This document shows positions 14,400-60,063 of a stretch of 64,000 nt of DNA, piece by piece. The stretch comes from Bryoerythrophyllum caledonicum (Eukaryota; Streptophyta; Bryopsida; Pottiales; Pottiaceae), in assembly GCA_963971425.1 (NCBI GenBank), contig OZ020516.1:1178001-1242000 (forward strand). Reading direction: 5' to 3'. Under the pieces are notes generated by a model. The model made no database searches, was not told the origin of the DNA, and worked only from the letters and a program-made list of their open reading frames with translations. How positions within the stretch are numbered: the first letter of the stretch is position 1; each line of letters starts with the position of its first letter. A program made the position numbers and the translations under genes.

Positions 14400-14530
14400 C
14401 AGAGTTGTTCGGCCGTCCGTCCACCCGGTAGTGTCCGTCCGTCCCGATGTCCGTCCGATAGAGGCTGCTGTCCGTCCGATAATGGCTACTGTCCGTCCGA
14501 TAAAGGCTGTTGTCCGTCCGATAAGGGTCA
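14400..14530 (+). repeat. hAT subterminal array, left end
   Basis: Eight or so GTCCGTCC units, several followed by GATAxxGGCT. Subterminal repeats of this sort are the usual transposase-binding sites of hAT elements. Confidence 0.75.
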
Positions 14531-14599
14531 ACCCTAGTTTGACCATGACTCGAGGTAAATCAATTTACCCACTGCCACGAAGGCGACTACGTGGCTAAC

Positions 14600-15060
14600 A
14601 CGTCGTCAACAGGGTCGCGCGCGTGCGGACAGGGGGGCGGGCGCGTGAAGGGATCGGGCGCGTACGGAGATGGGCCGGGCGCATACTGAAGGGGCCGGGC
14701 GTGTGCGGATATGGGTTGGGCGCGCACTGAAGGGGCCGGGCGCATACAAGGGAGGACCGGGCGCGTACCGAATTGGGCCGGGCGCGTACAAGGGTGGACC
14801 GGGCGCGTACTGTGAGGGGCTGGGCGCGTGCAGGGAGGACCGCGCGCATAACGCCAGTGTCCGGGCGCGCGCGGTGAAGGGCCGGGCGCATACTTGGAGG
14901 GGCTGGTGCGTCCGGCCAAGGTCGCGCGCATTCGTAGAGGGGCTGCGCGCGTTCGTGGGGGAGGACTGGGCGCGTTCGTGGAGGGGGCTGGGCCTGGTGC
15001 GTGGCCTTTGGGGTCACGCACGTACGGGTATTGAATTTAGGGGTTGCGCGCGCTCTCTCA
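14600..15060 (-). repeat. GC-rich array 1
   Basis: About 17 diverged units of 20-30 bp with core GCGCCCGGCCC on the minus strand. Long Pro/Arg/Gly reading frames cross it on both strands only because the unit lacks stops. It lies between the left hAT end and the 3' end of the kinase gene. Confidence 0.8.
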
Positions 15061-15223
15061 CTTTTTAACATGCATGAGCTTCATATTGCAATGTGTATGA
15101 AAAATGTTAATCTTTTATTTATCACGAGGTGGGCAAAAAGCACCGTTACATCACAATGCTAGTACGTATTGCAAAATGATCAACAATTGAAACCTTCACT
15201 ATCAATACGCTAAGTCAAAATAT

Positions 15224-16810
15224 CTATATCTCATAGCGGAAGCAAGCGTCCGGAACTTCAAAGTTGAATGGTTTAGCCATTAGCTCGTCAACCACTTTGC
15301 AGAGTGTTGGACGTTTGAGAGGATCTCGCCCCAGTAATTTCTCGATCTTCACTTGAAAAGCTGCGTAGTTGACGGTTGATTTGAACAATATTGAGTCAGA
15401 TTCTTTCTCCCAAATCGCTCTAGCCATCCATCCAACGGAGTACAAATCGGCGAGCTGGGTGTATTGGTGACGCCGCTGCATCACATCCAATGCCGTTTCC
15501 GAATCTTGTGGGCCGAATTTGTAAAACAACTCTGGAGCTACCCAATGTCGTCTACGGCGTTGATTGTCCAGCTTCGTGTCTGTCCGAAATCCATATTTTG
15601 ATGGCTCTTCGTGTGATACTCGGCTCGCAATTCCCCAATCACAAACGCCTATGAAGATGGATCCTGGTTTCTCTGGAGGAAAGTGGAGAAGCACGTTTGA
15701 TGGAGCGATGTCATTGTGAATGACATTTGCCTTGTGGACTTGGGCCATGGTGCACATCAAAGCCCAGGCAAGTCTTGCTCTATTCTTCCGGAAGGCTAAG
15801 ATTTGTGTTGTATCCTCCGCCGAAATATATGGAGCTGAAAGGATTGAGTTGCTCGAAGCCGCCGGATTTGCCTTTGAATCGATGGTTTTAAAATGGGCCC
15901 AACTACCACCATTCCACCACAATGTGTACGCCTCCATATTCTTTGTATTCACCGCCCAAAACTTTATAACTCCTGGGTGTGCAACATGACATATCATGGC
16001 CTCGTGAGACCGTTGTCTAAATTTCTCCTTCGGATGAGACGCCGTTGGCATTTTCCCGGCAAACTCCATGTATGCCGAAATGGCTCGCACACTCACGATG
16101 CGGAGCTTCCGAACCTTTCCGTATCCACCAACGGCGTCATATCCGGAAAGTCCATAAACTCCGATATCTTCTGGAAGAAATTGCACGCTGTGCAACATAT
16201 GTGCCTCCATGGCTGACTTCATCGCTTGTTCATTCCAAGGCATACCTCTCGTACGAGAGCTTGAAAACCGGCCGATGGTGGTCTTCACACCTTCGAGGAA
16301 CTTGCGGAGTTCCAAGTCTCGTGGCTGATGTTGGCCCCCGCGAGGTTTTTTCACCTCACAATCAAATACATGCGATGCATTACTCGTACATTGAGTGATT
16401 ACTCTCTCCATGAATGAGGCATAGTGATACATGCCATATGCATCCTTGAACCATTCAGAACTCTCCAGAGCGCGCTCGAATTTCGACTAGAGGTCCGCCT
16501 GTAAGCACATGATTCCTGGCTCTCCCTTCTCTAAATAAACTTGACGGAATCGCACCACGTCAATTTCACACCATCGACGGTAGTATTGTATTGCCACACC
16601 TCGAAGAAATGCGGTATACTCCTTTGGTGGATAACCGGCATCCTTCTCGTGCGCAGGCATTTTTTGCTTCGCCCTCTTCGACGGTGCCTTCGGTGCATCG
16701 GAAGGATTGCAGCTCGACTCCGCAACGCTAGTAGGTGGAAGCTCCGATGCATCTGGAGCATCTAAATCAACATACGCGGGCCGCTTCCCAGTATTACGAT
16801 CAGTGGCCAT
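15224..16810 (-). pseudogene. protein kinase gene carried by the hAT, one in-frame stop
   Basis: Start ATG at 16810, stop at 15224. About 107 residues, then TAG at 16489-16487, then about 419 residues in the same frame. The first part is basic with no known domain. The kinase domain follows: glycine loop VGGYGKVRKL, lysine in MEFAGKM, Glu in RSHEAMICHV, catalytic loop VIHNDIAPSNVLL (HND instead of HRD; Asp codon at 15712-15710), DWG instead of DFG (15640-15638), WVAPELF for APE, and DPLKRPT near the end. The Lys, both Asp and the Asn are present, so the ancestral protein was probably an active Ser/Thr kinase. Its 5' side faces a GC-rich array shared with the divergent coiled-coil gene. Domain call is strong; the role in transposition is unknown. 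Confidence 0.8.
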
Positions 16811-16841
16811 TGCAATAATCACAACCCTACACAAACTATAA

Positions 16842-16851
16842 TTTTATAAAA
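16842..16851 (-). promoter_or_regulatory. possible TATA box of kinase gene
   Basis: TTTATAAAAT on the minus strand about 35 bases before the kinase ATG. Weak evidence, and close to the start codon. Confidence 0.25.
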
Positions 16852-16989
16852 AAATCAAAACCTCCCCTGGACCCAATGTGTGGTGGCCCCCCTCTTAGTT
16901 CCTAGCAAAGTACAAATAGTACTAGGACAAGGAGCCACTTGAGAGGAGCCTATGTGATTGATATTAGAATCTATTCCATTTATAATGAA

Positions 16990-17393
16990 ATGGAAAACCC
17001 TGGCCGCGCATGCACGTCTGCATGCGCCTGACCAAGACGCCACGCGCCCGACCCTCTAGCGTACGCGCCCGGCCCTCCAGAGAACGCGCCCGGCCCTCCA
17101 GCGTACACGCCCGGCCCGTAACCGAATAGAGCCTGTTCCCACACGGATAGAGCCCGTTCCCGCACGCGCCCAGTCCGTTCCCGTTCGTGCCCGGCCTGTC
17201 CCCGTTTGCGCCCGGCCTGTTCCCGCACGCGCCCGGCCCCAATGTCCACGCGCCCGACCGTGGATCCTACGCGCAAGGCCCCAAACCCTACGCCCGAGAC
17301 CCCGAAACGTACGCGCGAGACCCCAGCGTATGCGCCCGGTCCCCATACGGCATGCGCGCGTTCCCCATGCGGCGTGCGCGCTCGGCCCACTAG
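16990..17393 (+). repeat. GC-rich array 2, between divergent kinase and coiled-coil genes
   Basis: About 17 units of roughly 20-24 bp with core GCGCCCGGCCC on the plus strand, ending directly at a TATA box. The same layout recurs before the transposase gene, which suggests promoter or heterochromatin-boundary use. Confidence 0.8.
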
Positions 17394-17401
17394 TATAAAT
17401 A
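17394..17401 (+). promoter_or_regulatory. TATA box of coiled-coil gene
   Basis: TATAAATA immediately after GC-rich array 2 and about 280 bases before the ATG at 17683. Confidence 0.55.
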
Positions 17402-17682
17402 GTCGCGTGCGCCCAGCCCATCTCACAAACTCCAATTGGAAATCGTGGCTTTCAACTATCTTTTTAAGGTGGTTGATTGCGTGATCTTCGATTGGGGCTC
17501 CAGATTTGCACACATCCATACGATGTATTGCATCACCGCATCGATCACCGTTCTAATTAATTAACATTGCTACCTTGGATTATTTTGAAATCCAAGGTGG
17601 TGATTTTGGTTCGTTTTTTTTTTTCGATAGAGCTTAGCGTAGTTAACGAACATTTTGGTAGATTTTTTTACAGTGTTCAGCT

Positions 17683-18410
17683 ATGGAGAGTGAGAGTGAG
17701 CCGGATGCCCAACAACAGCCACCAATGTCCACCGCGCAGAGGAAGAGGGAGAAAGACAGAGATAGGGCCAGGCACGGGAAGCTCCAGAAGAAGCGGATGC
17801 ACGTGTTCAATAATCCAGTGAAGATTGCATTCGTGGGTTGGCAAGATAAGCCATCGCCGTGGTCGTCTGTCACTTGCGAGGATTACATCGAGTGGTGCCA
17901 TTTGTCGAAGATGTTTCCTCCACATCGCCATTTAATAAATCGTCGCGCAAACAAGGCGAATTTGAAGTATTGCATCAATGAGGCGTTTCGAGCTCGTGCC
18001 CTCCAAGTTCACCAATACTTATACGAGCTCGAATTCATGCCCCGCAATGATTGTCCCCTCTATCTCACTCGCATGGTATATGCGGAGGTTGTTCTCAATA
18101 AGCGAGTGGATTGGAGGACTGTGCGGAAAACTCCCAAAATGCCGAGGGTGTGGATGCATGCCGATGTGCCTAAGGAGCAACATCCAGTGTTACTTTTTAC
18201 GGCACTAGGGCCACAGAAAACGGATGGACCAGAAGAAGTAGCTCCAGTAGAGTCAGATTCATCACCGGATACGGACTCAGATGGACGTGTAGGTCGACGT
18301 TCATCGACTTCTCTAGTGGCGTGTGCGTCACGGAAAAAGCGCCAACGAGTGAAGCTCCATCAAGCAGGATGTCTACTGGTTCAAGGAGGTGGCCAGGTAG
18401 ATTTACCAAT
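17683..18410 (+). pseudogene. hAT cargo gene, 5' part, interrupted by solo LTR
   Basis: ATG at 17683 opens 242 codons: a charged start (MESESEPDAQQQPP, then a basic stretch to about residue 45), a compact Trp/Cys-containing middle part (VGWQDKPSPW, EDYIEWCHLSKMFPPHRH) with several paired aromatic residues, and a Ser/Asp-rich linker with RKKRQRVK as a possible nuclear signal. The frame is cut within codon 243 by the LTR at 18411. It resumes at 20904 when one copy of the CCAAT duplication is removed. I do not recognise the family. Divergent orientation to the kinase and the shared array suggest the two were expressed together. Confidence 0.65.
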
Positions 18411-20898
18411 TGTGAGCCAAATAAACCGCCCCCTAATGGAGTGGCTTATCTTGAACACAAGACCTACATATGGGATGCAGCCCCTTGTGCAAACATACTT
18501 TGACCATTCATACAAGCATGATGATCCAAGGCGTGGTCACTTAAGGGGGTTCATTGATAATTAGTGATGTGATGGCTGAATTCAGCCTTAGGTTGAATCC
18601 AACCTTTAGACAACCGTAAATTCCGCCTCAAACTTCCGTTTCCAATGTTTTAAAGCTCTATTAGGTTCAGTTTCGCCTTGTGTACTTGATTAGACCTTCC
18701 ATGACCCATTCCAGGCTTAGGTGTGAACCGGGCAGCTGCGACAGTAGACAGGCTTCTTGTTTTAACCCTGAACTTATATTCCTTTTATCTTCTTGACTAT
18801 AACTCCGTTTTGTATGTTTGTTTTTTTTATTCTTATTAGTTTTTTGTGCTTAACATGATGGCAGCATTCAATTGATCATTTGACTCGACCCTGGACCTCC
18901 CAGCCAGCGACCAGCAGTGCACCTTCAACATATGACTTTATTCAAGATCATGCACCACATTCCTACGCATGTATCACATTCATTCACACAAGAATCCACC
19001 CCAACCTTACTAAGAGTGAGCCTCCAGCTGTGTTCACTTACTAATGGCGCTCTAATCGGTTATTTAGTTGAATATATAGCAAACCCTAATTCTACCAAAA
19101 AATTGGCAGCGCTTCCGCGTGGTTTTTGTATTTAGAAAATTAGGGTTCAAGTCATACACATGGAATTGAAGAGGTTCGAGGGAGAAAAGAAAGGGGCTCC
19201 CTGATTTAATTCGGTTCACCCTCCATCCTTAGCCTTCGACTTGCTTGGTCAGCTCGTGATCTTCCTCCTCTTGTTCAGCTCGTGATCTTGCTCCTCTTGT
19301 TCAGCTTGTGATCTTGCTCCTCTTGTTCAGCTCGTGATCTTGCTCCTCTTGTTGTTGCCCTTGCTCCGCGGCTCGTATCTTCGTCTTCGCAGCTCCAAAC
19401 CGCACGCTCTTGGGCTTGTTGGAAAGCCAACTTTCTAATCTATCTACTCCTAAAATCTTAACTCGATTGGAGCAAAACTCCGTGACTGACAAGGAAAAAA
19501 CCGAGGCCGTTGAGATCCGCTGGTTGCCCTTGCTCCGCGGCTTGTATCTTCGTCTTCGCAGCTCCAAACCGCACGCTCTTGGGCTTGTTGGAAAGCCAAC
19601 GCTTCGATCTATCTACACCTAAAATCTTAACTCGATTGGAGCAATACTCCGTGACTGAGAAGGGAATTACCGAGTCCGTGTGAGATCCGCCGCCGATCTT
19701 CCAGCTGGTCGCCCTCGCTCCACGGCTCGTATCTTTGTCGTCACAGCTCCAAATCGCACGCTCTTGGGCTTGTTGGAAAGCCAACGCTCTGATCTCTCTC
19801 CACCCGAAAAATCAACTTGATTGGAGCAATACTCCGTGACTGACGAGGGAAAGACCGAGGACCTATGGGATCCGCCGCCGATCTTCCAGCTGGTCGCCCT
19901 CGCTCCACGGCTTGTATCTTCGTCGTCGCAGCTCCAAATCGCACGCTCTTGGGCTCGTTGGAAAGCCGACGCTCTGATCTATCTACGCTCAAATTTTCGT
20001 GATCATTGATTCAAAACTCTAGCCCACACGAGGGGAAACACCGAGGCCTACCTCTTCTCTCTCTCCACACACCTCTCGGTTCCTAACTCTCACACAACCT
20101 TCATTTCCTAGCTCTCTCTCTCCAATTTCCTAACTTCCATGGTTCGAATGAACGACCTCCAAGGGGGTAACCCCAAGGCCCTTGCTCCCTACTTCGTTCC
20201 CAAGGTCGTTCCCTTTGTCGTTCACAGCCGCCAATTTGGGTGGGCACATTAATGGTCACACTAAACAACTAGTAACTAAAAAGCAATAATTCACTAGCCA
20301 CCCTTGCATTTAACACAAGTGGGTGTCCCACTAACCAAGGAATATCTAAATCTAACCTTTGACTCCATGCCACATGTGTGTGCATGATCTCAATAAGTGA
20401 GCCTCTAAACTAATTTCAACGATGCAAATACTACCTAATTAGCCTAGATTGAATTCCCCTTGTTTTGGGTTATGGCTAATTTACCAAATGATGGTGAGGG
20501 TTTTTTTCCCCAAGCCTTTGGGTCCCTTAAACTATTTTTTCCTCTTCCCTTTTCTTTGAGGCTCTTTGATTTTTTCCTTCTTCCTTCTTTTCTCCTTCTC
20601 ACCATTTTTCCCTCCTTCCTATTGTTTTGGTTTTCTCCATCTTTTCTTATTTTTTTTTTCTTTTTGTTTTCTTCTATTCTTTTAATTTTTTTTTCTTTAT
20701 TTTTTGGTTATCTTCCTAAAACTTCCGGTTACCACAATGTGGCTCCCACTGATGATTTAGTGCACGGAAGGCTTAATTGGTCAATCCAATCGAAAACCAA
20801 GAACTAACCAATGGGATAACCCATTTTCACTACTAGTTAACCCTTATGGACGCGATGCGCGGTCCATTCAACCTCGTGGGCCGGTTTTGCGGCTCACA
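18411..20898 (-). mobile_element. solo LTR of the Gypsy 1 family
   Basis: TGTGAGCC...GGCTCACA ends, 5-bp duplication CCAAT (18406-18410, 20899-20903), and collinear similarity to the LTRs at 27863-30565 and 38321-40997, with more substitutions and fewer internal repeats. Orientation is given by matching the coding strand of Gypsy 1. A solo LTR arises by recombination between two LTRs. It splits the coiled-coil gene. Confidence 0.92.
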
Positions 20899-20903
20899 CC
20901 AAT

Positions 20904-21575
20904 CGTTAATCTTGTTGGCGATGATGAACCCGCCGCGAGGCTTGAGGGTGTTTAGATGAAGAACCCATCCATGTTGTGGATGAAATGCCAATGATGGATG
21001 TCGTAGTCACCACTTCCAACACCAGGCATGTAGCATCAAGGTCCGGAAGTACGACCGTCGATGCTCACCATGAGTTATTGGACACTATCTGCTTGAAGGA
21101 TGAGATGATTCAACGTCTCCAAGAAGAGATTGAAAACCTGAAGCTGCAATCTAGTGAAAAGGGTGATATTATCACCAAGCAAGCAGCCGAAATAGAAGAG
21201 TTGCATCGAGAACGTGTTGCCAGCCAGGCTGATATTGGCGAAGTTGCTCGAGGTGTGGACGAGACAATGATCGCCAATGTTATTGGCAACATTACTAGCT
21301 GCTTGCTAGAGACTCCGACAAGACCACCGCGTCACCACTTCGCTAGTCGTCCGTTGGTTTTTCTACCGCCGCCGACTGTAGCAGCACAGCCATTCGTAGA
21401 TTCCATCGGCATCGAGGATTCTCTGTCATTTTCCCGAGCTAATCCAAGGACGGAACTTGTTCTGCTTCGCACTGCAAGCGACATCCTTCGAGAAAGGATA
21501 AGATCGGTGGGCGAGCAGTGTGGGAAGTCGTCCCACAGGTTTTCGGCTGATTACCATAAAATCCGGCTAAAATAA
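20904..21575 (+). pseudogene. hAT cargo gene, 3' part with coiled coil
   Basis: After the LTR the frame continues for about 17 codons, hits TAG, and a one-base shift leads into a 200-codon frame ending at 21575. Residues such as LLDTICLKDEMIQRLQEEIE and QAAEIEELHRERVASQ form heptads of a coiled coil of about 60 residues, so dimerisation is likely. A Pro-rich part follows. The last 18 codons may already belong to inserted DNA, because TGTGGGAAGTCGTCCCACA at 21519 looks like the start of a Copia-type LTR. Confidence 0.55.
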
Positions 21576-22092
21576 AAAAAATAGTGGTGATAAAATAAGT
21601 AAAGTTGAGTTAGATAGTACAGAATCAATAACTGGAAAATAGGATGGGTGCCGGATAAGCTAAGTCCTTAAAAGGTCTAACGAAGTGCATAATCCGGATG
21701 GCCGGTCACGTGGGAAACCGGGTATAATCTAGGGAACCCGGAAATACCTTGAATCGGGAGAAGAAATCAAGATATACCTACTATGGAACCTGTCATAATG
21801 GCGATAGTGACGTCAGAGCCGTTAAAGGGCTTTGATAGTGACGTCACTACCGTTGGAGAAATCCCGTACTTTGGGGCCGTTATAAAAAGGCCAACCGACG
21901 GGGAATACCCAAAACAGTTTTTCTTCTTCGTCCTCGATTTCTTCTTCTCTCCCTCCGGACTGTTTTCGATCCCCCTCCCTTAGTCCTTCTACAGGTTTCT
22001 CAGCCGGTTGCTCCTCAAGCTTCCGGCAGTATTAGAGAGATGTTGTGAGGTCAGTGCGTGCAGGTATGACCGGAGGCTGACGGAAGAGCGCC
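21576..22092 (+). other. 5' region of the gag-like reading frame
   Basis: Contains TATAAAAAGG at about 21890 followed by a pyrimidine-rich leader. Together with the LTR-like start at 21519 this resembles the promoter half of an LTR, but no matching right copy is visible because of the N gap. Confidence 0.35.
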
Positions 22093-24066
22093 ATGGCCGG
22101 CGAGAGATCCGGGAAACATGAAAAGGTATAGAGCGCTGCCATCGGGGGACCACCCATCGTGAGAGTGATACCGGAGTACCCGGCGGCCGACGGAGACATG
22201 CATACCTTGTTCCACTTTCTGGACATCATGGGGTGTTCCGGCCTGATAGCGGCGGCGTGGGGAACGAAGGATGAGAAGGTTGTGACGGAGCTCATAGGCG
22301 CACCCGACAACCAGTATGACGGTAGTATACGCGCACACCCGAAGAAGTGGACCCGGGCGGAGTGGAAGCGGACCTACGGCTTCGCTGATGGGGACGTTAA
22401 GGTGACGGAGCGGAAGGACGAGCTCACGGACGGCGAGTTCCGAGGACCGGCTGATCCGAAGGAGGGATACTCCATCGCCGACCTAATCGACCCACTAGCT
22501 CAGATTGTAATAGGGTTTCTAAACCCTATTTTTCACCCGGGGAAACCCAAGCGTTTAATATTGAAGTGGGCAACCACGTTTTTAGAAGCTATGCGCGAGA
22601 AGATCACCGTCGACTGGGGGTCCCTCATGCAAGATTTGGTGGAGCGACTGATCAAGAATCTCCACCAGAACCGGAAGGCGGGGTCGCCGCTTCCGGCGTA
22701 CCTGTCCCATCTCTACCACCATCATGAGCTGCTTAAACCGGAAGAGCACGACGAATACGAAGCCCTAGTGACCATTCAGAGGTACGGAGGGGTGAAGGCT
22801 GATGAGCAGGGTGATGAAGATGAAGAAACGGAGACAGCTCCGGCGCCAACACCCTAGACCCGGAAAAGGAGTCGCTCAGCCCAACCGGAATCACCACCAG
22901 TGCGCTCTCCACCCGTCCATCTAGACCCGGCTCCCGAAGGTGAAGAAGAAGATGGAGCGGGGCCGTCGAAGCGGCCAGAGCGATGCCCGACCCCGGAGAT
23001 CCCGACACTCATCGGAATGCACAAGGAGGACATTATAGAGCTGCTCCAACACGTTGCCTGGAGAGCTTCCCGGATCAACCAACACCTGAACGACAGCACC
23101 TCCCTGATATACGCCATCATGGGGGAGCTCTGGCTCGAAAATTCGGAGGAGATTCTGCCCCGGTTGAAGAGCCATGGGGAAACTGATTTCCGGTTGGAGC
23201 AGATGGAAGCCCAGCACCGGACCCTTTTGCAAGCCCGGTCGAAGATGCAGCAGGACCTGTCGAAAGCAGATGCAGCGCTTGAAGAAGCCCAAGTATTTTG
23301 CAAGGCAGCAGAAGCGAAGGCAGCCGGATCAGCTCAAGCCGTTGGCGAGGTACGGGAAGCATTGAGTTTTCTGGTTGACACTGTCAACCGGAGCATTCTC
23401 TTCACGGAGTATCTGGAGAAGGGAGGTGAAGTAAACCGGGGTTAGGTCATCCGTTTCCATCTGGACCACGCCCGAAAGATGGAGAAGACGTGGGGGCAGA
23501 TGCAGTTACTGGCGAACAACGCAGCCTGCATCGTTATCCCGGAGAAGCTGACGGAGCCAACTCCCACCATCGATCTTACCTCGTCCCTGGAGGCTACCGG
23601 ACCTTCCCAACAGGCACATGAACCCTCCGGGAAGGGTAAGGGACCAATGGAGGAGACGGTAGTCACTCCGGACACAGCCCCGCCCGGACAGAGTGGCAGA
23701 GCGCCTCCCAACAGTCCGGAGACGGTCCGGAGGACCCAACTCCCTTTAGTACTAATTCAGGATTCTCCTTCCAACTTCCGGATCCCTCTTTCGCCACCAA
23801 CCTCCAGTCGACGGAAGACGACCTCTCCCCTTTCTTGAGGTCATCCGGATACGGTCACCAGTCCCAAGGCAACACAGAGGACTTCTCCCGGCACCGCAGA
23901 GAAGGCGACGCAGGTGGCAGCTGCAACCGATCAACCCGACTTTGAAGCTCCCGCCTCCGGAAGTGGTCCAGTACCGGATCCCATTCCGGATAAGGTAAGT
24001 GGCAGGAAGCAGACCGTGGGAGCGTCTCCGATGCGCCGGAGTGGACGGAACAAGAAGACCCCTTAG
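22093..24066 (+). pseudogene. gag-like / plant transposon protein, four in-frame stops
   Basis: One frame runs from ATG 22093 to TAG 24064-24066 (657 codons) with no indel but internal stops: TAG near 22128, TAG 22855-22857, TAG 23443-23445, TGA 23836-23838. The first 250 residues (WTRAEWKRTYGFADGDVKVT, LNPIFHPGKPKRLILKWATT, VDWGSLMQDLVERLIKNLHQ, LPAYLSHLYHHHELL) form a globular domain of the style found in plant transposon-associated proteins. The middle (residues about 370-450) is coiled coil, and the end is Pro/Ser-rich with a basic tail (RRSGRNKKTP). No reverse transcriptase or transposase motif is visible. It may be the gag of a non-autonomous retroelement or another cargo gene; I cannot decide. 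Confidence 0.5.
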
Positions 24067-24195
24067 TTAGATTATTAGTTTTAGCAGAAGATTTGTTAGT
24101 ACCGGTCATTAAACTTGCGGTAGCGATTAACAATGGGGCTCCAGATTGCACTCGGCTACTGATCTGTCTATCGAAACCGGAAACTTAGAATTGTT

Positions 24196-24395
24196 NNNNN
24201 NNNNNNNNNNNNNNNNNNNNNNNNNNNNNNNNNNNNNNNNNNNNNNNNNNNNNNNNNNNNNNNNNNNNNNNNNNNNNNNNNNNNNNNNNNNNNNNNNNNN
24301 NNNNNNNNNNNNNNNNNNNNNNNNNNNNNNNNNNNNNNNNNNNNNNNNNNNNNNNNNNNNNNNNNNNNNNNNNNNNNNNNNNNNNNNNNNNNNNN
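24196..24395. other. assembly gap (200 N)
   Basis: Run of N. It hides the junction between the gag-like unit and the transposase promoter, possibly including an LTR and most of a GC-rich array. Confidence 1.
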
Positions 24396-24400
24396 ACATA

Positions 24401-24450
24401 GAGAATGCGCCCGGCTACCCTTGTGCGCGCCCGGCCCGAGATGCTCCTGC
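24401..24450 (+). repeat. GC-rich array 3 (truncated by gap)
   Basis: At least two GCGCCCGGC units remain right of the gap, just before the transposase TATA box. Confidence 0.7.
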
Positions 24451-24458
24451 TCCGGCAC

Positions 24459-24466
24459 TATATAAG
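24459..24466 (+). promoter_or_regulatory. TATA box of hAT transposase
   Basis: TATATAAG about 195 bases before the ATG at 24656, directly after the GC-rich array, as for the coiled-coil gene. Confidence 0.6.
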
Positions 24467-24655
24467 AACTATATGCAATAAGCTTGACTCACCTCACATC
24501 CTTGGCTTCGTGTCCTGGAACTCCTTATTGGGCTCCTTGCATGAATCTGCAAGTTTGTGAGTGACCTTTGGGTCATTATTTTCTATGCACACACAATTTC
24601 CTATTACTTTTGGCGGATTCTCTTTGGCACAACATTGCGCGCCAATTTTATTGTG

Positions 24656-27600: not shown

Positions 27601-27862
27601 AAGAATATCCGAGTAAAACGACTTGTGAACGCCGCATCAACTACTGGAGCCGAGCTACAATTACGAAACTTGGCCTCGGAGATTGAGGAGTACGTGGCAC
27701 CAGTCTTGGAAAATTCAGCGGAGAACTTCTCATCATCGGGCGATGATGCAGACGATGAGGATTGCAATGAGGTACCTGGCGACAATACGGTGGTGCTTCG
27801 CGGGCTTTCTCTTCTCCAAAATGTTCGCCGATCAAAACGAAAGCGAAAACAAAATGAAGAAT
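24656..27862 (+). pseudogene. hAT transposase with long acidic C-terminal extension
   Basis: Residues 1-60 hold a BED-type zinc finger (CVWCNYTF...CMSHYGYP...SC). About residues 180-340 are a DUF659-type catalytic part (ATICSDGWDNVTRRPLMNIM, VCTDNASNMLGA, CCAHIWDLLLEDWGKEG). At 26380-26600 lies the hAT dimerisation region (WWNRVGG, CERNWSMYSFVHSKSRNRL, LDYIYTNSRLL). Breaks: TAG 25682-25684, TAG 25913-25915, a one-base shift near 26290, and TAA 26719-26721. After that TAA the same frame stays open for 380 codons of Asp/Ser-rich sequence ending in a basic RRSKRKRKQ, so a long tail fused to the transposase seems likely. A separate second protein starting at ATG 26722 is the alternative. Gypsy 1 cuts the frame at 27862; the last codons are at 41003-41021. 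Confidence 0.88.
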
Positions 27863-30565: not shown

Positions 30566-30709
30566 CATGGCGGCCATCTGGGACAGCTCGAAGAGGCAGA
30601 GAACCCACTCTTGTTCATGGGCACACGGTCAATATTTACCTTTTTTGTGTTCGAATGACCCATGGCAGTACCAAAATGTGGAGGTCCACTTGTGAAGGTC
30701 GTGAACAAA
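30566..30709 (-). other. Gypsy 1 3' untranslated region
   Basis: Between the end of pol and the LTR. The minus strand reads CCCAGATGGCCGCCATG next to the LTR, nearly the same as in Gypsy 2, so it probably includes the second-strand priming region. Confidence 0.6.
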
Positions 30710-33700: not shown

Positions 33701-34171
33701 TAGGTCATCGAGGAGGGGAACTAGGCTAAGTTCCAACCCGGTTTCCCTTCCAATGAGCTCACTCTCCATGAAATGCACGGACATGGCTTCATCCGCGCTC
33801 GAGGTAGGGTGCTCCCTCAACCAGTCTACAAATTCCCCGGTGGGAACCCACTCATAAAGGCCCGGTCCCATGCTTTTAAATGGCATTATGTGGGCCTTCG
33901 AGGGTTGGGCTCGATCCACCGCCTTGTGGGGCGCAAACCTCACCCGTTTGGGAGGCTCCTTTGATAGTACCTCTTGTGATTCATCCTCCGACGAGCCCAT
34001 GCAACCACGGCATATTCCTAGCCTACTTGGTTGGATATGGACTGTAGTAGGGTTCTCCGGTGGACCATAGGTGATGTTTGGTTTTGGCCCCCCCCATTCT
34101 ACCGTGGCATTGGCAATCCGCAACCAAGGCCTACCTAGTAGCAAGGGGTATGCCTCCTTGTTGGAGTGCAT
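30710..34171 (-). CDS. Gypsy 1 pol: protease end, reverse transcriptase, RNase H, integrase
   Basis: 1153 open codons. Residue 1 is an internal Met of the gag-pol polyprotein (the LLLGRPWL protease end). RT spans about 310-490 with LRVCIDYRKLN, FMDGYSGYNQI and the catalytic FIDD at 448-451. RNase H begins at FHVYCDAS (about 591) and contains TTTERECLAM. Integrase has the zinc region CHDSACGGHF...CDACQRY (about 803-847) and the catalytic acids in IDYVG (about 874), SDRGKHF (about 936) and NGHTERVN (about 971). It copies the element RNA and inserts the cDNA. It is complete and without stops, but is joined to gag out of frame at the C run 34204-34212. Confidence 0.95.
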   Translation of the reverse strand: MHSNKEAYPLLLGRPWLRIANATVEWGGPKPNITYGPPENPTTVHIQPSRLGICRGCMGSSEDESQEVLSKEPPKRVRFAPHKAVDRAQPSKAHIMPFKSMGPGLYEWVPTGEFVDWLREHPTSSADEAMSVHFMESELIGRETGLELSLVPLLDDLEPSAVFGMDVEGTQGDELEVLGDEGPLNPSLHFRRTSTGILASGSGATYPQVPNDWYKGPTQQPHVHHDDWKLMVVSHEQDEVRSIKVGVGLTEEEMVKYKALVVEFGDIFAWSYKDLKGIPPAVTQHHIPLLPGTTPIRQKERRMNPNLQLIVKAELEKLLQAGFIKPVEISDWVSPMVLVKKKNGKLRVCIDYRKLNHHTQKDHFPLPFINTILEEVGGHDLYTFMDGYSGYNQISIAPEDYHKTAFTTPWGTFIYLVMPFGLCNAPSAFQRAMNYAFSDLLHKSMTVFIDDFSTQSTKDNHLTCVRQSFERCRRTGIALNPEKIFLAVERGVLLGFVVSKDGREPDPDKVKVIVELHPPTNVKEIQKTLGHIGWYREVIHDYATKAMPITRLIQKNVRFEWTPHCQEAFDVLKGELTTYPVLRPPNWELPFHVYCDASAVAVGSTLCQPVGLNGKDHPIAFASRQLNPAEKNYTTTERECLAMVFSVKKFRHYLLLNPVVFYVDHMAIKYLVNKADLSGRLARWVLLLEEFDYTVEYRPGRMHLQADHLSRLSEEPGIVPIDEALIDEDLFKVSSIPSWYNLVAEFLTTHLLPDSLSKNERRKVRLHSRHFTIVGGKLYRRGVDGLLRRCVTSVEIPTILSACHDSACGGHFSGTLTAQKVLRAGYYWPTLFQDAHEYTKRCDACQRYARNDLRMSMPLRVSLPLVPFEKWGIDYVGEVHPSSSSGMKHIVVATEYLTKWAEARAVKTNDANHAAKFLFEQIITRFGCPKILISDRGKHFLNEVIEAMTKRFKINHRKTTPYHPQINGHTERVNQTLVNILRKTVTDSKRDWDTKLPAALWAYRTTFKVTTHATPFSLVYGIEAILPIEFEIPSLRVAVTERWSMATSLADRLERLEELDEMRRWSAQNMEAIRRRRKIAFDKRNKVRSLRPGMLVLLQDARRLDFPGKFDALWLGPYLVKEVFPNNSVQLQTLNGEDFPTRTSGNRCKEYKV

Positions 34172-36824
34172 TCGGATGACTTGGAAGGTGAGGGAATACT
34201 CTACCCCCCCCCGTGGTCACTTTACAACCACTAATTTGGCCTAACGGGGCCTCCGAGCTTTGATTAGCCATGTTGATGATGTACGGTGAAGGTTCTGTGA
34301 TGTCAAGGCCTAGTTTCTCCATGGTTGAGAGGGGCATGATGTTCAACCCACTACCACCGTCTACTAGTACATTAGGTACGATCTTGTCCACAATCGAAAC
34401 CTCGATTTGTACCGCCTTGACCTCGATATTGGGGTGTGCGGATTTAACCCGAGCCGCCAGCCTGACCTTTGCCCTAGGCCTTCGCTTCACCGGAGTACCC
34501 GACCTAAGGGACTTCCTCATGGGTGGTGACACCTCTAATAGTTGGGCTATGGTGATGTCCGCTTTGAGGCGACTCAAGTCCGCCCATAAATCGTAAGGCC
34601 CCTCTCCCCCTTGCTTCTCGATACGCGGGAACGTGTTTACCTCAAGACTAGGGATTGGTGGACCTTCCCATGGCTCTTGGGGGGTGGACAAGGGTGTTCG
34701 AGACCTAGGTATCCCACGGGGGGACTCGAAGTTGGCTCGTTTAGTGCCTTCTACCGCCTCCTTGGTGGTATCGTTTAGGTCAGAGAAGTGAGGTGAATCC
34801 TCTTCTGAGGTCTCACCTTCCTCTGGTATAGGTGGAGGGGGGCTTGAGTATCTAGGCTCCCGTCGGCTAGACCGAGTCTGGACTGCCAATGCCGGTAACT
34901 CACAAGTTTTTGCTTCCTTGGTTGTGCTCACCTCGTGGAAAACTACATTGAGCTCAGTGAGGGAGGGGCTCTGGGTGGACACGATCTCACTTGACATGGT
35001 GGCATAGCGCACATCTTGTGGGCCTTGGTTTTGTTGGCCCCCGTGGTTCTGCTCTAGGTTTTGTTGGCCCCCGTGGTTTTGCCCTAGGTTTTGTTGGCCC
35101 CCGTGGTTCTGCCCTTGGTTAATAGGGATGTACCCGGCCTTGGTATTCACCCCCATTGGAGGAGTCTGATTTTGGCGATGATTGTTGTAGTCGTAGTAGA
35201 GACTAGGAGGCCTAAGGGTATTATCGGAGGTGGGGTTACGCGCACCTCTCAAATGATCTTGGGCTTGTTGAGGATAGTTCCCTGGTGGAAAGGGCATGGG
35301 AATTACCTTGTCCGGTCTACGACATACTTGGGTAGGGTGATTACCCCCGCAGTTACCGCATACCACCCCACTTTCGACCCAACATTGCCCTGGTGCGTGT
35401 CTCTTGCCACACGGTTGATGGATTTCATACCGTGGTCTCGGAGGTCCCCCATAACCTTGGCTTGGAGATGCATAGCCTTGAGGCATGTAGCTAGTTACTG
35501 TCGGTGGTTGGTTCCTATGAGGAGGCACATACGGAGGTTGAGAAGCTTGGTGTTGGGGTGCTGCCACCGGAGTGGTACAAAAAGGGCTGGTGTGGCCTGG
35601 TTGACCACATTGAGTGCACCATAAGCCCGAAGCATGTCTACCGGATTCTATGGGTGGAAACGTGGGGTTAGGGACTTGGTTCTTAATCAATAAGGCCATT
35701 TGGTCTTGCATGGCCTTGATTTGTTGAGCTAATTGATCCTGGAAGCCCTGTTGGCCTTGAAGGATTTTGTTCTTCATTTCCTCCTTCCATGTGCCCCGCT
35801 CCTCATGATAGGTGAGCTCAGGAAGGGCTACTGGTGGCCTAACGTTCAAGGGTGGGGCGTAGTAGTTCCACGTAGGAACTTGTGCGCCTGTGGATCGTTG
35901 GTTACGTTCTAAGACTGGTCCCTTACCCTTGGCATGGATGGGTATGAAACTAGGAATATGGTGATCCTCCTTCCTCCACATGCGCTCTTGGTCTCGATCC
36001 ACCTGCTCTGTTAGCCTAGCTTGTGCCTTGGCCTCATCTAACGATGCAGGGCGGACCTTCAAAATCTCCCTAATGGTTCCCTCATTGTTGAACCCTTGGA
36101 TAAAGAACTGGGTTAAGGTGTCATTGATGAGGAGGTTTCCCACGAGCCTTGTAACCACCAGGTCGAATCTCCTAATGTATGTCGTGATATCCTCCCCTGG
36201 ACCTTGGCGTAGCGCGGCTAGGGCTGTGAGGGCATTACTTTGACCTACTTCGGGTCTAAAGTGCTCCAAAAAGGCCCTCATGAGGCTATCCCAGTCCTGG
36301 AAGGTGTTGGGGGGGTGGTTCCTATACCACTCGTAAGCGGCATCCTTTAAGGTACACGAGAACCACACTAGGAAATACCCGGTGTTGGTGATGAGACAAG
36401 TAGTGAGGAGCTCTAGAAACCGTTCCACATGTGCGGAGGGGTCTTCATCCCTAGTTCCTCTAAACGTGGGCAAATTGGGTGGCATAGGCGCCGCCTGTAA
36501 GCCTTCGGGTACTACAATTGGTAAACCCCTTGGCTGAACCAAGGGGTTGATGGGAGGCCGAACCGGGGGTGGCCCTCCAGAGGCCATGGTAGGGGCTGAG
36601 GTGTTGCCTGGTGGACTAGTAGTGTTGGTGGTGTTCACTGGATCAAATGCAGGGATAAGGAAAGATGGGGGAAAAAGAAGGGGAGGAGCTGGGATAGCCT
36701 CTAGCTGAACCTCCAAGAATCCTTCCGCCGTGTCCTCAGTGAGTTCCCTAGACCTAGTCCTTTCACTCGCCGGTTCCCACGGTGGTGTGAGGGAAGGTTT
36801 TTGGGACCTTGTGGCACGGGACAT
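34131..36824 (-). CDS. Gypsy 1 gag and protease
   Basis: ATG at 36824, 897 codons. The retrotransposon gag domain covers about residues 125-285 (HVERFLELLTTCLI, YEWYRNHPP, FLEHFRPEVGQSNALTAL, IRRFDLVVTRLV). Then come CCHC knuckle CTQCGQPGHTSPFC near residue 400, a second Cys/His cluster CGNCGGNHPTQVC, and Gln/Gly/Asn-rich spacers with three GQNHGGQQNL repeats. The protease active site is VLVDGGSGLNIMPL. The frame then runs through nine C residues (34204-34212) and ends with an unrelated tail at 34131. In Gypsy 2 the equivalent gag and pol are one frame, so this is a +1 shift (mutation, assembly error, or less likely recoding). Confidence 0.93.
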   Translation of the reverse strand: MSRATRSQKPSLTPPWEPASERTRSRELTEDTAEGFLEVQLEAIPAPPLLFPPSFLIPAFDPVNTTNTTSPPGNTSAPTMASGGPPPVRPPINPLVQPRGLPIVVPEGLQAAPMPPNLPTFRGTRDEDPSAHVERFLELLTTCLITNTGYFLVWFSCTLKDAAYEWYRNHPPNTFQDWDSLMRAFLEHFRPEVGQSNALTALAALRQGPGEDITTYIRRFDLVVTRLVGNLLINDTLTQFFIQGFNNEGTIREILKVRPASLDEAKAQARLTEQVDRDQERMWRKEDHHIPSFIPIHAKGKGPVLERNQRSTGAQVPTWNYYAPPLNVRPPVALPELTYHEERGTWKEEMKNKILQGQQGFQDQLAQQIKAMQDQMALLIKNQVPNPTFPPIESGRHASGLWCTQCGQPGHTSPFCTTPVAAPQHQASQPPYVPPHRNQPPTVTSYMPQGYASPSQGYGGPPRPRYEIHQPCGKRHAPGQCWVESGVVCGNCGGNHPTQVCRRPDKVIPMPFPPGNYPQQAQDHLRGARNPTSDNTLRPPSLYYDYNNHRQNQTPPMGVNTKAGYIPINQGQNHGGQQNLGQNHGGQQNLEQNHGGQQNQGPQDVRYATMSSEIVSTQSPSLTELNVVFHEVSTTKEAKTCELPALAVQTRSSRREPRYSSPPPPIPEEGETSEEDSPHFSDLNDTTKEAVEGTKRANFESPRGIPRSRTPLSTPQEPWEGPPIPSLEVNTFPRIEKQGGEGPYDLWADLSRLKADITIAQLLEVSPPMRKSLRSGTPVKRRPRAKVRLAARVKSAHPNIEVKAVQIEVSIVDKIVPNVLVDGGSGLNIMPLSTMEKLGLDITEPSPYIINMANQSSEAPLGQISGCKVTTGGGRVFPHLPSHPNALQQGGIPLATR

Positions 36825-38298
36825 CTACTCTAAAGTCTAAGAGAATCTTGTTGTGTGTTGATGATGGTCATGTTCCCCCGAAAGATTTTCCATCCAAGGT
36901 TTAAGGGTCGTGGGTGAAACTACACGAAGCACGGCCTAATTCGATCGGTAAGTGGATGTTTCCAACACTCCTACTCCCGATTCTATCACGAGGATGGACT
37001 GACCCAAGACCAAGACCCAATTTTTAGTGGTGGAGTTTTAGCTCGATGAAGCCGCCGAAGAATCCTATTAAGGACTACCCTCCGAGGGCAAACGACAAAA
37101 AGCTAACCGAATTGAGGGATGTCTCCACGAGCATCACCCCGTTGGAAAGTTGTCCCCCAACTGGCGCCACACGGTACAGATCCTTACTGTGGGGCTGACC
37201 CAGACCTCAATTTGATAAAAGGTGGGGTTCCTCGGTATCTTTGCTATCCCCCCTTCCACCTTTTACCACCTTGAACTAGGCATTACCCACTAGGAGGAAA
37301 ACGACTCAATCACGGGACGGCATGCAACAAGGTGTGTATACAATGTTATCACTGTGAAGAAGACATACCTCGATGCATCTCCAGCCACCCTGTCACCATT
37401 AGTTGAAGTCGACCTTGGACCTAATCGCACTCTATCGATGCTAAGGCCAACCAATAAGTCACATACAATGTTATAGAGGGGGATAACTTACCTTGAAGCA
37501 ACTCCAGCCAATCCACTTGTTAGCACAAGATTTATTGCATGCAATTTCGTGGTTGACCAAACCTAGCGGTTCTAAGGCAAGTGTTCCACACGGCTCAAGT
37601 GGGAAATCAGGGTTTTCTAACCCTAGTGTGGTCACCACATCCAAGTTGGTCCTACTTACTACTCGTGGTCCTACAAAGAGGGTGTAGTGCACATACCGTA
37701 CGCAGCGCTCCTTCCAAACAGCACCCCTACGTCTTGGATGCGTCCACGACTCCAACTCCCCTCCAAGTGGCTCATTCACACATACATTGCCTTAACTTGC
37801 AACTTTTGATTCAACCATTCCAATTACACCAAGTTGTTCTTACCTTGGTGGTTAGTCAAGCGCGGGGGGAAGGAAGGGGCGCCCTTGTCCCATACCCGGG
37901 CACTTGCACCCTTCCCCTTCGGCCTAGGAGCTCACTGGAATTCTTACAAACACCGTGGGAGGGCCTCAACCTTTCACTCCTAGGCCCCTTGCTCGACTCA
38001 AAGCCACAAGACTAGAAGGGGATCCTTCCAACACAAGGTGTTTTGTGGTTGGAAGGTCGGGAAACCCACACTCCCTTCTAGACCCCCACCTTTAAACACA
38101 ACTTGGCATCCATGCACTCACCATACTTCCAAACATTCACAAGTCATTCACCATCCAACAATAACTTAACCATTCATGAGTAAATTGGGCACTTACCTCA
38201 AGTTAACCTATGTTGCTCCATATGCCATAAGGCTAATTGCGTTTGTACCTTACATCCAACGATAGAACAATTAGCACAATCAAACCATGAACACGCCT
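36825..38298 (-). other. Gypsy 1 5' leader
   Basis: About 1.5 kb between primer-binding site and gag, without a coding signal. A GGTGGTAAAAGGTGG-type stretch and other blocks recur in the Gypsy 2 leader. Confidence 0.6.
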
Positions 38299-38318
38299 CC
38301 TCCCGGCAGACGCACCAA
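38299..38318 (-). promoter_or_regulatory. Gypsy 1 primer-binding site
   Basis: Two to three bases inside the 5' LTR the minus strand reads TGGTGCGTCTGCCGGGAGG, beginning with the TGG that pairs with the CCA end of a tRNA. It is not the common plant initiator-Met site. The tRNA was not identified. Confidence 0.6.
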
Positions 38319-38320
38319 AA

Positions 38321-40997
38321 TGTGAGCCAAATAAACCGCCCCCTAATGGGGTGGCTTATCTTGAACACAAGATCCTACATATGGGATGCAGCCCCTTGTG
38401 CAAACATACTTTAACCATTCATACAAGCATGATGACCCAAGGCGTGGTCACTTAAGAGGGTTCGTTAATAATTAGTGATGTGATGGCTGAATTGAGCCTT
38501 AGGTTGAATCCAACCTTTAGACAAGCGTAACTTCCGCCTCAAAGCTTTGTTTCCAATGTTTTAAAGCTCCATTAGGTTCAATTTTGCCTTGTGAACTTGA
38601 TTAGCACCTTAACCACCAATTCCAGGCCCAAGTGCGACCCTAACAGCAGCAACCAGCAGACAGGCTCCTCTTTTTATGTTAAAAGTTTAATTCTTCATTA
38701 TCTTCGTGATTATGACTCCGTTTTTTACGTTTGTTTTTTGTATTCTTATTAGTTTTTCTTGCTTAACATGATGGCAGCCTTCAATTGATCATTTGACTCG
38801 ACCCTGGACCTCCCAGCTAGCGACCAGCAGTGCACCTTCAACATATGACTTTATTCAAGATCATGCACCACATTCCTACGCATGTATCACATTCATTCAC
38901 ACAAGAATCCACCCCAGCCTTACTAAGAGTGAGCCTCCAGCTGTGTTCACTTACTAATGGCGCTCTAATCGGTTATTTAGTTGAATATATAGCAAACCCT
39001 AATTCTACCGAAAAATTGGCAGCGCTTCCGCGTGGTTTTTGTATTTAGAAAATTAGGGTTCAAGTCATACACATGGAATTGAAGAGGTTCGAGGGAGAAA
39101 AGAAAAGGGGCTCCCTGAGTTAATTCGGTTCACCCTCCATCCTTAGACTTCGACTTGCTTGGTCAGCTCGTGATCATGCTCCTCTTGTTCAGCTCGTGAT
39201 CTTGCTCCTCTTGTTCAGCTCGTGATCTTGCTCCTCTTGTTCAGCTCGTGATCTTGCTCCTCTTATTCAGCTCGTGATCTTGCTCCTCTTGTTCAGCTCG
39301 TGATCTTGCTCCTCTTGTTCAGCTCGTGATCTTGCTCCTCTTGTTCAGCTCGAGATCTTGCTCCTCTTGTTGGTGCTCTTTACTCCGCAGCCTGTAACTT
39401 CGTCGTCACAGCTCCGATCCGCGCGTTCTTGAGCTTGTTGGAAAGCCAACTTTCTAATCTATCTACTCCTAAAATCTTAGCCTGATTGGACAAGAACTCC
39501 GCTACAAACGAGGGAAAACCTGAGGCCGTATGAGATCCGCCACCGATCCTCCAGTTGGTCGTCCTCACTCCGCCGCCCGTATCTTCGTTGTCACAGCTCC
39601 GATCTGCGCGTTCTTGAGCTTGTTGGAAAGCCAACGTTCTAATCTATCTACTCCTAAAATCTTAGCCTGATTGGACAAGAACTCCGCTACTGACAAGGGA
39701 AAACCTGAGGCCGTATGAGATCCGCCACCGATCGATCCTCCAGCTGGTCGTCCTCACTCCGCCGCCCGTATCATCGTTGTCACAGCTCCGATCCGCGTGT
39801 TCTTGAGCTTGTTGGAAAGCCAACGTTCTAATCTATCTACTCCTAAAATCTTAGCCTGATTGGACAAGAACTCCGCTACTGACGAGGGAAAACCTGAGGC
39901 CGTATGAGATCCGCCACCGATCGATCCTCCAGCTGGTCGTCCTCACTCCGCCGCCCGTATCTTCGTCGTCACAGCTCCGATCCGCGTGTTCTTGAGCTTG
40001 TTGGAAAGCCAACGTTCTAATCTATCTACTCTCCTATTTTCGCAACGATTGAATCACATTCCAGCCCACAGGAGGGGGAAATCTGAACCCTACCTCTCTC
40101 TCTCCTTCCACACACCTCTCTCGGTTTCTTAGCTCCTACCACACACCTCTCTCACTCCTACCTCCCACCCTTCGAATGAGCGCCCTCCAAGGGGGTAACC
40201 CCAAGACCCTTGCTCCCTTCTTTGTTCCCAAGGTCGTTCCCTTCGTCGTTCACAGCCGCCAATTTGGGTGGGCACATTAATGGTCACACTAAACAACTAG
40301 TAACTAAAGAGCAATAATTCACTAGCCACCCTTGCATTTAACACAAGTGGGTGTCCCACTAACCAAGGAATATCTAAATCTAAACTTTGACTCCATGCCA
40401 CATGTGTGTGCATGATCTCAATAAGTGAGCTATTAGCTAATTTTCAAAGGTGCAAAAATCTAATTTAACCTACCTAAATTGAATTCCCCTTGCTTGGGGT
40501 AATTCCTAATTTACTTAGTGATTGATGAGGATTCTTTTCCACTTCTTTTGGACCCTTTTGACTATTTTTTTAAGGGCTTTTAACGCCCCATTCTTTCTTC
40601 TTTTCTCCTCACCATCCTCCTTCTTCTTCTCCCATTTTTTTGGTTTCGTGATTTCTTCATCGTGACCGAATATGGTCTACAACTCGATAGGAGGTAAATT
40701 CTTCTCCACCACTACTCATTTTAATTCTTTTCTAATTTTCTTTTGTCTTTTTTCCCTTCTCTCTTTGCTTTTCTTTTCTGGTTTATTCCCCTTTTTTTTC
40801 TTCCTTTTTGGCTAACTACATAAATTCCGCGATTGCCCATAAATGGCTCCTCTTTTAGTGAGGGGAAAGGCCACTTGGCCATTTTAATCAAAAAACCACG
40901 AGCTAGTCCATGGGATAACCCATTTTCACCACTCATTAGCCTTAATGGACCCGACGTGAGGTCCATTCATCACCGTGAGCCGTTTTTGCGGCTCACA
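38321..40997 (-). repeat. Gypsy 1 LTR (5' in element sense)
   Basis: 2677 bp, same internal arrays as its partner but one 26-bp unit fewer. Confidence 0.95.
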
Positions 40998-41234
40998 AGA
41001 ATCCTCAAGCTCAGATGATTAAAAGATGACGGACATGAGGGTACTACAAGTTAAAAGTGACTTTAGTGGTGTGGTGATAGCATGGTACAATAGCACCGCG
41101 GTTTTAAAATATGTACTTGGTGTTGAGAGTGCCCATTCATGAAAGCACCACATTGAAATAAATAATTTTAATGTTAGAGCACCTTGGTACAATTGAATTC
41201 TTTCAAATTCTCTAAACCTCAGCCCTTTTGAGGG
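40998..41234 (+). other. end of hAT transposase frame and 3' region
   Basis: After removing Gypsy 1 with one AGAAT copy, the transposase tail continues as SSSSDD and stops with TAA at 41019-41021. The rest is AT-rich, probably 3' UTR. Confidence 0.6.
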
Positions 41235-41590
41235 GCAGATGCAGTGTTCGATCGCGCACGCCCGGCCCCTAATCGCGCGCGCCCGATAGGCAGGTGCGCG
41301 CGCGACCCACAATGGAACGCGCCAGGCCCGTGACGCTGCGCGCCCGGCTCCTAACGGTACGCGCCCGACCTTGACGGTACGCGCCCGACCCTGAAATGCA
41401 CGTGCGAGGCCCTTAGGGGTACGCGCCCGGCCCTGTATGCACGCGCCCGGCCCTAAATCGTACGCGCCCGGCCCTAATTGGAACGCGTCCGGCCCTACAT
41501 GAACGCGCCCGGTCCAGATTGGTACGCGCCCGACTCCAAATGCTGCGCGCGCGGTCCGAAGGCACGCGCCCGCCCCTTGATGTGACGTGG
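41235..41590 (+). repeat. GC-rich array 4, right side of hAT
   Basis: About 15 units of 20-24 bp, core ACGCGCCCGGCCCT. Same core orientation as arrays 2 and 3, opposite to array 1. Confidence 0.8.
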
Positions 41591-41689
41591 AATGCCGTCT
41601 GGACGTGTCGTGCACACGTGTTTTACTAGGGGGTAAGTTGAAAATTAGATTTAGGGTTTATAATTTTTTTTTACACGCAATTGTCCGCC

Positions 41690-41775
41690 AAAAAGTACTG
41701 TCCGTCTCGTCCGTTCGTCCTACTGTCCGTCCGTCCGCTGTCTTTGGGCCCTGTCCGTCTATGCAGACAACCTCG
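41690..41775 (+). repeat. hAT subterminal array, right end
   Basis: GTCCGTCC-type units leading to the terminus. The last 50 bases match the left end of the MITE at 56253 (reverse complement), including the GACAGCGGACGG and GACGGACAGG blocks. Confidence 0.75.
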
Positions 41776-59960: not shown

Positions 59961-59970
59961 TATTAAACTT

Positions 59971-60003: not shown

Positions 60004-60063
60004 GTCCTAACCCTAATCCTACATCCTACATCCTTAACCTTCAAACCCTGTATCCCTAAATGA

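Follow-up and report, generated by a model that had tools for sequence, protein, structure and literature searches.

The 64,000-nucleotide window analysed here (positions 1178001–1242000 of contig OZ020516.1, below C3, in the 437-Mb, 894-contig genome of Bryoerythrophyllum caledonicum) carries a hAT transposon of 27,376 bp at 14400–41775, bounded by CAGAGTTGTTCGG...GACAACCTCG. We read its anatomy, with a probability of about 0.9, as that of a multi-gene plant hAT family in which a protein kinase gene, a RING-type gene with its paralogues and a transposase gene share one pair of ends, the cargo being integral to the element. The window copy is a decayed member of this family.

The element is surrounded by an exact 8/8-bp duplication, TCCGTAAT, and its ends are of hAT type, as the original prediction had stated for these boundaries. 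When the two flanks are joined in silico, a frame of 122 codons runs through the junction; the empty site thus restores the interrupted gene (gene X), and this part of the prediction holds as well. Gene X itself (13350–14369 and 41784–44138) encodes a long acidic and basic stretch and gave no Pfam match above the cut-off. On one strand, the motif GTCCGTC occurs seven times in the first 200 bp of the window element, four times in the last 200 bp and nowhere between; in the window element and copies A, F and G (described below) the corresponding counts are 5–7, 4–5 and at most one. Both ends of copies A and F contain CAGGGTTGT, giving short terminal inverted repeats (TIRs) of the CAGGG type, which resemble the ends of Ac. 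An internally deleted miniature inverted-repeat transposable element (MITE) in the same window is flanked by a duplication of its own, also exact (8/8). With an 8-bp duplication, CAGGG-type ends and a hAT dimerisation region in its transposase, the large element belongs to the hAT superfamily.

Copies of the family lie at many unrelated sites, where they have made 8-bp duplications. A six-frame genome search with the kinase gave 2238 candidates, the best 100 of which were scored, all at 89–100% identity; the 30 best loci, window included, were extracted together with 1.5 kb of sequence to either side. At all 30 the left end is followed by the left array and then the kinase, and within the short cut-out stretch the middle array appears at 22 and the start of the next gene at 15. 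Using CAGAGTTGTTCGGCCGTCCG as query with up to five mismatches, a hAT terminus (usually CAGGG...) was located 642–903 bp past the kinase stop at every one of the 30 loci, and their 100-bp flanks are all distinct, with no blastn match between any pair. Since a terminus was found beyond each kinase stop, with distinct flanks, the kinase lies inside hAT ends at every locus cut out. The finding that would have spoken against the original prediction, a kinase elsewhere with boundaries of its own, was seen at none of these 30 loci from the 100 scored; for the other such finding, a separate duplication at 15.1–17.5 kb, no search aimed at it was made.

Eleven further kinase loci were read over 10–20 kb and compared with the window, which makes 12 elements. 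Elements A, B, C and D were chosen as kinase copies without stops, and F, G, H, I, J, K and M for a RING-type gene whose start was already in view; because of these seven, the RING-type count among the 12 is inflated. The reading did not reach the right end of B, C, I, J and M. Copy F is complete at 14,275 bp and contains the left end, an array, the kinase gene (minus strand), a second array, the RING-type gene, genes B and C and a transposase gene with an acidic tail (all plus strand), then an array and the right end, between duplications ACCAGATT and ACCTGATT, which agree at 7 of 8 positions. Copy G (10,451 bp; CTCAATAA/CTCAATAG, 7/8) retains the kinase, a shortened RING-type gene, gene C and the transposase; copy A (10,772 bp; exact 8/8 duplication AGCCCAAG) the kinase and a shortened RING-type gene; copy H the kinase, part of the RING-type gene, gene B and a partial right end; copy D the kinase and the transposase. 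Copy K spans 7,494 bp, with both ends and an internal assembly gap. Altogether the kinase was found in 12 elements, the RING-type gene in 10, gene B in 4 (its start only in K), gene C in 2 and the transposase in 4; order and orientation agree in all 12 wherever the parts are present. The proposal that a kinase travels with the transposase in a hAT element is thereby sustained, since in copies with these ends the kinase is accompanied by the second gene, the order and orientation of the two being constant. Beside or within element B there is a large two-part gene (L041 9399 to L044 2259), one part of which is a weak match (0.08) to CxC2, a cysteine cluster associated with KDZ transposases.

In copy F, GC-rich arrays (unit about 21 bp) stand at the ends, between the kinase and RING-type genes, before gene B and before the transposase; the stretch before gene C is GC-rich in G and not in F. 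TATA-like boxes precede the RING-type, C, transposase and kinase genes of copy F, with none matched before gene B. Such an array had been predicted beside each gene. In the window this is true of both ends and of the interval between the kinase and the second gene, also with units of about 21 bp, and a short remnant is what is left 5′ of the transposase.

The association of the genes extends over the genome. Linkage was counted on best-scoring places only (100 for the kinase, 97 for the RING-type gene and 118 for the transposase, the last being those kept from 123 matches after short rows and second pieces of one copy had been dropped). Chance was modelled by random placement in 1000 trials, a rough model that omits small long-named contigs and assumes 26 Mb for contigs of unlisted length. 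Within 15 kb, 24 of 28 kinase–RING pairs show the expected arrangement, the two genes usually lying about 3.2 kb apart (chance mean 1.0, maximum 5), as do 15 of 16 RING–transposase pairs and, window included, 14 of 15 kinase–transposase pairs (chance mean 1.3, maximum 6 for each of the two). Because the lists take in best-scoring places only, these counts are lower bounds and carry no information on rarer arrangements.

The 27,376-bp length of the window element is due to insertions of other elements (Table 1). About 18.5 kb of it is nested retroelements or assembly gap, and the size of the complete unit is 14.3 kb, not 27 kb. The kinase, a second gene and a transposase with an acidic tail were all located inside the ends as predicted; all three are broken here, the second gene being split by a solo long terminal repeat (LTR) with a frameshift shortly after. 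Genes B and C were not found in the window, where they would fall in the assembly gap or have been lost. The LTR pair of the nested Ty3-type retrotransposon differs at 13 of 2675 aligned bases. The solo LTR comes from a family related to this element (aligned pieces about 82–93% alike), and a second Ty3-type element on the opposite strand, at 47038–53821, is about 70–81% similar to the nested retrotransposon in four stretches. The gag-like insert has no recognised Pfam domains; by eye, a lookalike occurs in element D (L042 4550–5884), also inside the hAT family.

Table 1. Features of the hAT element and of a related MITE in the 64-kb window (., no strand).
Feature	Position	Strand	Remarks
Target-site duplication, left	14392..14399	.	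TCCGTAAT
Left terminus	14400..14419	+	CAGAGTTGTTCGGCCGTCCG; usual family form CAGGGTTGTTCGGCCGTCCG; ≤5 mismatches at 30/30 kinase loci cut out
Subterminal region	14400..14590	+	Repeated GTCCGTC
Left GC-rich array	14591..15060	.	Units of ~21 bp
Protein kinase gene	15224..16810	-	529 codons including stop; Pkinase 1e-12; in-frame TAG at 16487-16489
GC-rich array between kinase and RING-type genes	16980..17400	.	Putative divergent promoter region; TATAAATA at ~17394, by reading
RING-type/coiled-coil gene, 5′ part	17683..18410	+	No Pfam match for this piece
Solo LTR, nested, foreign to element	18411..20898	.	Target repeat CCAAT; inside second gene
RING-type gene continued, coiled-coil part	20904..21520	+	RING-encoding 3′ part missing in window
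gag-like retroelement insert, nested, foreign to element	21518..24195	+	Start ~21518, in second gene; runs into assembly gap
Assembly gap	24196..24395	.	200 N
GC-rich array remnant	24396..24640	+	With TATATAAG; putative transposase promoter region
hAT transposase and acidic tail	24656..27862	+	DUF659, hAT dimerisation region; frame broken in window
Ty3-type LTR retrotransposon, nested, foreign to element	27863..40997	-	Target repeat AGAAT (by reading); in end of transposase gene
Transposase gene region, 3′ tail	41003..41230	+	
Right GC-rich array	41231..41600	.	
Right terminal region and terminus	41601..41775	+	...GACAACCTCG; ...GACAACCCTG in A, F and K
Target-site duplication, right	41776..41783	.	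TCCGTAAT
MITE, internally deleted relative with the same two ends	56253..56519	-	267 bp; duplication GGTGCTAG at 56245-56252 and 56520-56527

The transposase matches DUF659 (6.9e-34, 117 bits) and Dimer_Tnp_hAT (6.4e-5, 23.1 bits against a cut-off of 21.4). Its window frame is interrupted by in-frame stops at 25682 and 25913, by a frameshift near 26.3 kb and by a TAA at 26719–26721 ahead of the acidic tail. At the position of this TAA copies F and G have a tryptophan codon, so that transposase and acidic tail form one protein. Stop-free frames of 1,111 and 1,119 amino acids exist at C14:8617613 and C15:2052277. A frameshift common to F and G sits where the window frame is open, and for this reason errors of assembly may account for some of the frame breaks. 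Outside the described family, hAT transposases abound in the genome: 150 of 1150 dimerisation-region candidates were scored, and all of these were above the cut-off. The RING-type gene of element M contains an assembly gap, and just past it lies a different hAT transposase (L053 6869–8245; DUF659 1.7e-37, Dimer_Tnp_hAT 3.6e-7).

A collection of 5.8 billion proteins contains 40 relatives of the kinase. An alignment (A1) of 22 rows was made from 21 of these environmental relatives, 19 being excluded, and a copy from the present genome at locus L041; the 21 show 33–80% identity, mostly across the whole 520–530 amino acids, including the N-terminal part, for which there was no Pfam match. The usual HRD, N and DFG motifs are replaced by HND, N and DWG. 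At least 90% of the 22 rows retain K253 and D367, and all of them N372 and D391. With its Pkinase domain, the catalytic Lys, Asp and Asn and the metal-binding Asp, the cargo protein is classed as a eukaryotic protein kinase, with putative phosphotransfer activity. A single-sequence search of the PDB with the kinase gave no match, and in a profile search solved kinases matched weakly (best 1.6e-4). Among the 100 scored genomic copies, 29 have no stop in the matched stretch and 71 have at least one.

The second gene had been described as a divergent coiled-coil gene. A divergent gene is indeed present; its product belongs to a RING-finger family, in which the coiled coil is the middle part only, and it has two further paralogues. 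The protein has 13 environmental relatives at 34–67% identity, 11 of which match zf-RING_2 at E ≤0.01 (best 4.5e-7; not all above the curated cut-off), and the family profile matches the RING of RNF24 at 1.4e-7. Genes B and C are RING-less paralogues sharing the N-terminal 130–140 residues of the RING-type protein, which is 46% identical to B (E 1e-39) and 42% to C (2e-37), B and C being 48% identical to each other. No Pfam match was obtained in scans of gene B and of gene C (251 amino acids in F), and the viral protein collection held no relative of the kinase or of the RING-type protein. A RING-finger gene of a different kind (L040 5228–7644; zf-RING_2 1.7e-6), followed by a coiled-coil-like frame, lies beside kinase copy C and may belong to another element with similar cargo.

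Codon changes among the genomic copies point to constraint on the kinase. Pooled over 435 pairs from 30 copies, its ratio of nonsynonymous to synonymous substitution rates (dN/dS) is 0.51, below 1, as anticipated by the original prediction, and modestly below the 0.68 and 0.76 of shifted frames. Single pairs range from 0.21 to 1.76, with 95% of them under 1. The corresponding polymorphism ratio (pN/pS) is 0.60 for changes confined to a single copy and 0.41–0.50 for shared changes, in a count from which 72 codon variants differing at more than one base were dropped. This pattern fits selection during the activity of the element and decay later.

Several observations weigh against an integral, functional cargo. 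No element read has all five frames open, and the window copy has no intact gene; even copy F is frameshifted in the RING-type gene, gene B and the transposase. An unbroken 529-codon kinase frame is present in 6 of the 30 best copies, by a count that is blind to insertions. The catalytic Lys is lost in the L041 kinase, the first row of A1, and the RING-type copy at L041 is damaged, with loss of Cys and no RING match. In copy K the RING region keeps its eight Cys/His residues (CPVC...CRCLYHPMC...CAKC) and scores 15.8 bits against a cut-off of 27.3 (E 0.017), and the flanks of this copy, CTTCTCAA and ATTGAGAA, contain no direct repeat. The constraint signal on the kinase is modest, owing to the many dead copies and to shifted-frame controls that are themselves below 1. 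The pooled dN/dS of the RING-type gene (0.52) comes without a shifted-frame control, as do the values of 0.74 and 0.60 for the 5′ and 3′ parts of the transposase, which are each based on four sequences and include single pairs above 1. Four of the 28 kinase–RING pairs stand in another arrangement. The transposase was found in just 4 of the 12 elements, and long transposase frames on C14, C15, C3 and C9 (the last with an internal TAG) have no top-100 kinase within 40 kb, so that transposase copies without the kinase may exist; a RING-type gene is located 20 kb from the C14 frame.

The last two points would also suit a division of labour in which kinase–RING elements are mainly non-autonomous and moved by transposase-only elements, linked copies being a minority, and the MITE with the same ends likewise agrees with it. 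Set against this, copies F, G and D and 14 scored pairs, window included, hold the transposase behind the cargo in the same place and orientation, and A and H are shaped like internal deletions of the full form; we consider such a division unlikely. A kinase block that is itself a separate transposon nested in an ordinary hAT element might be suspected, as nesting is common here and the window copy alone has taken in three retroelement insertions (solo LTR, LTR retrotransposon and gag-like). This explanation was rejected as extremely improbable, since at the 30 loci cut out it is the hAT terminus that bounds the kinase block on its outer side, and the block is found again, between the same ends, at unrelated sites.

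Plant TIR elements are well known to capture host genes, and the kinase and RING-type genes could accordingly be Pack-type-like passengers with no role in the element, a possibility with which the stops in 71 of the 100 scored kinase copies agree. Against it stand the full length of the genes, their constant order across many copies, a kinase dN/dS under its shifted-frame controls, the catalytic and zinc-binding residues kept in distant relatives and the lack of a close match between this kinase and any solved one; we regard the passenger explanation as improbable, more so than the division of labour above. A cargo integral to the hAT family thus remains the preferred interpretation.

By analogy with hAT biology, the transposase of this family would bind both the CAGGGTTGT termini and the repeated GTCCGTC motif, which is restricted to the outer 200 bp, then cut and paste the element, and internally deleted copies and MITEs would be mobilised in trans. 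Each gene is probably transcribed from its own promoter, an array and/or a TATA box lying upstream of most of them. With less support, we suggest that the kinase and the RING-type protein may serve as accessory proteins of the element. As the likeliest role, favoured tentatively and at slightly less than even odds, they could act on host control of the element, that is, on silencing, DNA-damage or cell-cycle state. The second likeliest, and on balance doubtful, is that they phosphorylate or ubiquitinate the transposase and so set its level. We further speculate, with similarly low confidence, that a streptophyte hAT lineage uses a kinase and ubiquitin-ligase-like module of its own to alter host control of transposition in the manner of DNA viruses. 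If this were true, the environmental relatives of both proteins would be pointers to a broadly distributed group of plant transposons equipped with accessory genes for signalling.

Other observations concern the genome around the family. Rfam and tRNA scans of the 64-kb window gave no match, and short interstitial AACCCT and TAAACCC runs at 59970–60021 are telomere-like. All seven genome candidates for the LEAFY SAM domain were above the cut-off, the best at 1.3e-27 and the other six (C12:14410522, C7:26862901, C7:17250359, C11:5479762, C2:20042169 and C15:13900320) at 5.5e-8 to 3.9e-4. LEAFY occurs in land plants and their algal relatives and is usually single- or low-copy. The strong match accordingly places the host among the streptophytes, and a fungal host, which the fungal precedents described below had suggested, was rejected on this ground.

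With the hAT superfamily (Ac/Tam3 type; DUF659) the present family shares the 8-bp duplication, short CAGGG-type ends, subterminal repeats, DUF659 and the dimerisation region and a MITE derivative; it adds the kinase, the RING-type gene, two paralogues, a long acidic tail on the transposase and GC-rich arrays at the ends and before several genes. Pack-type elements and Mutator-like elements (MULEs) with ULP1 peptidase genes are likewise plant TIR elements with extra genes; these differ in being of other superfamilies and in carrying mostly fragments or a single peptidase gene. The original prediction started from the premise that a transposase is normally all that a hAT element encodes, and so left out of account the hAT7 elements of fungi, which carry a TET/JBP dioxygenase gene (PMC12730594). 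There an accessory enzyme gene likewise travels with a hAT transposase, and hAT7 differs in its 7-bp duplications, its occurrence in rust fungi and its dioxygenase in place of a kinase and a RING-type protein (PMC12730594). No TET/JBP match was found among the open reading frames scanned here, and the duplications are of 8 bp, unlike those of TET-bearing hAT7. Fungal IS3EU elements combine transposase, TET/JBP and alpha-kinase genes (PMC12730594). They resemble the present family as DNA transposons with a kinase gene opposite in orientation to the transposase, and differ in their transposase superfamily, 6-bp duplications and alpha-kinase, the present kinase matching Pfam Pkinase. Fungi thus offer precedents both for hAT elements with additional enzyme genes and for DNA transposons that carry a kinase (PMC12730594). 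Our literature search found no plant hAT element with such kinase and RING-type genes, most subscription papers and bioRxiv lying outside its scope, so their absence is unproven.

The sequence comparisons point to a large cut-and-paste family in a plant genome in which a transposase, a kinase and a RING-finger-like (ubiquitin-ligase-like) gene move as one unit. Repetitive kinase and RING-type genes of such transposon origin could be mistaken for host genes in annotation. Transposons of this cut-and-paste type in plants are generally believed to require one or two proteins; the retention, in a hAT family, of a RING-type gene and of a kinase that shows signs of constraint suggests that such elements may manage their host by means of signalling enzymes.

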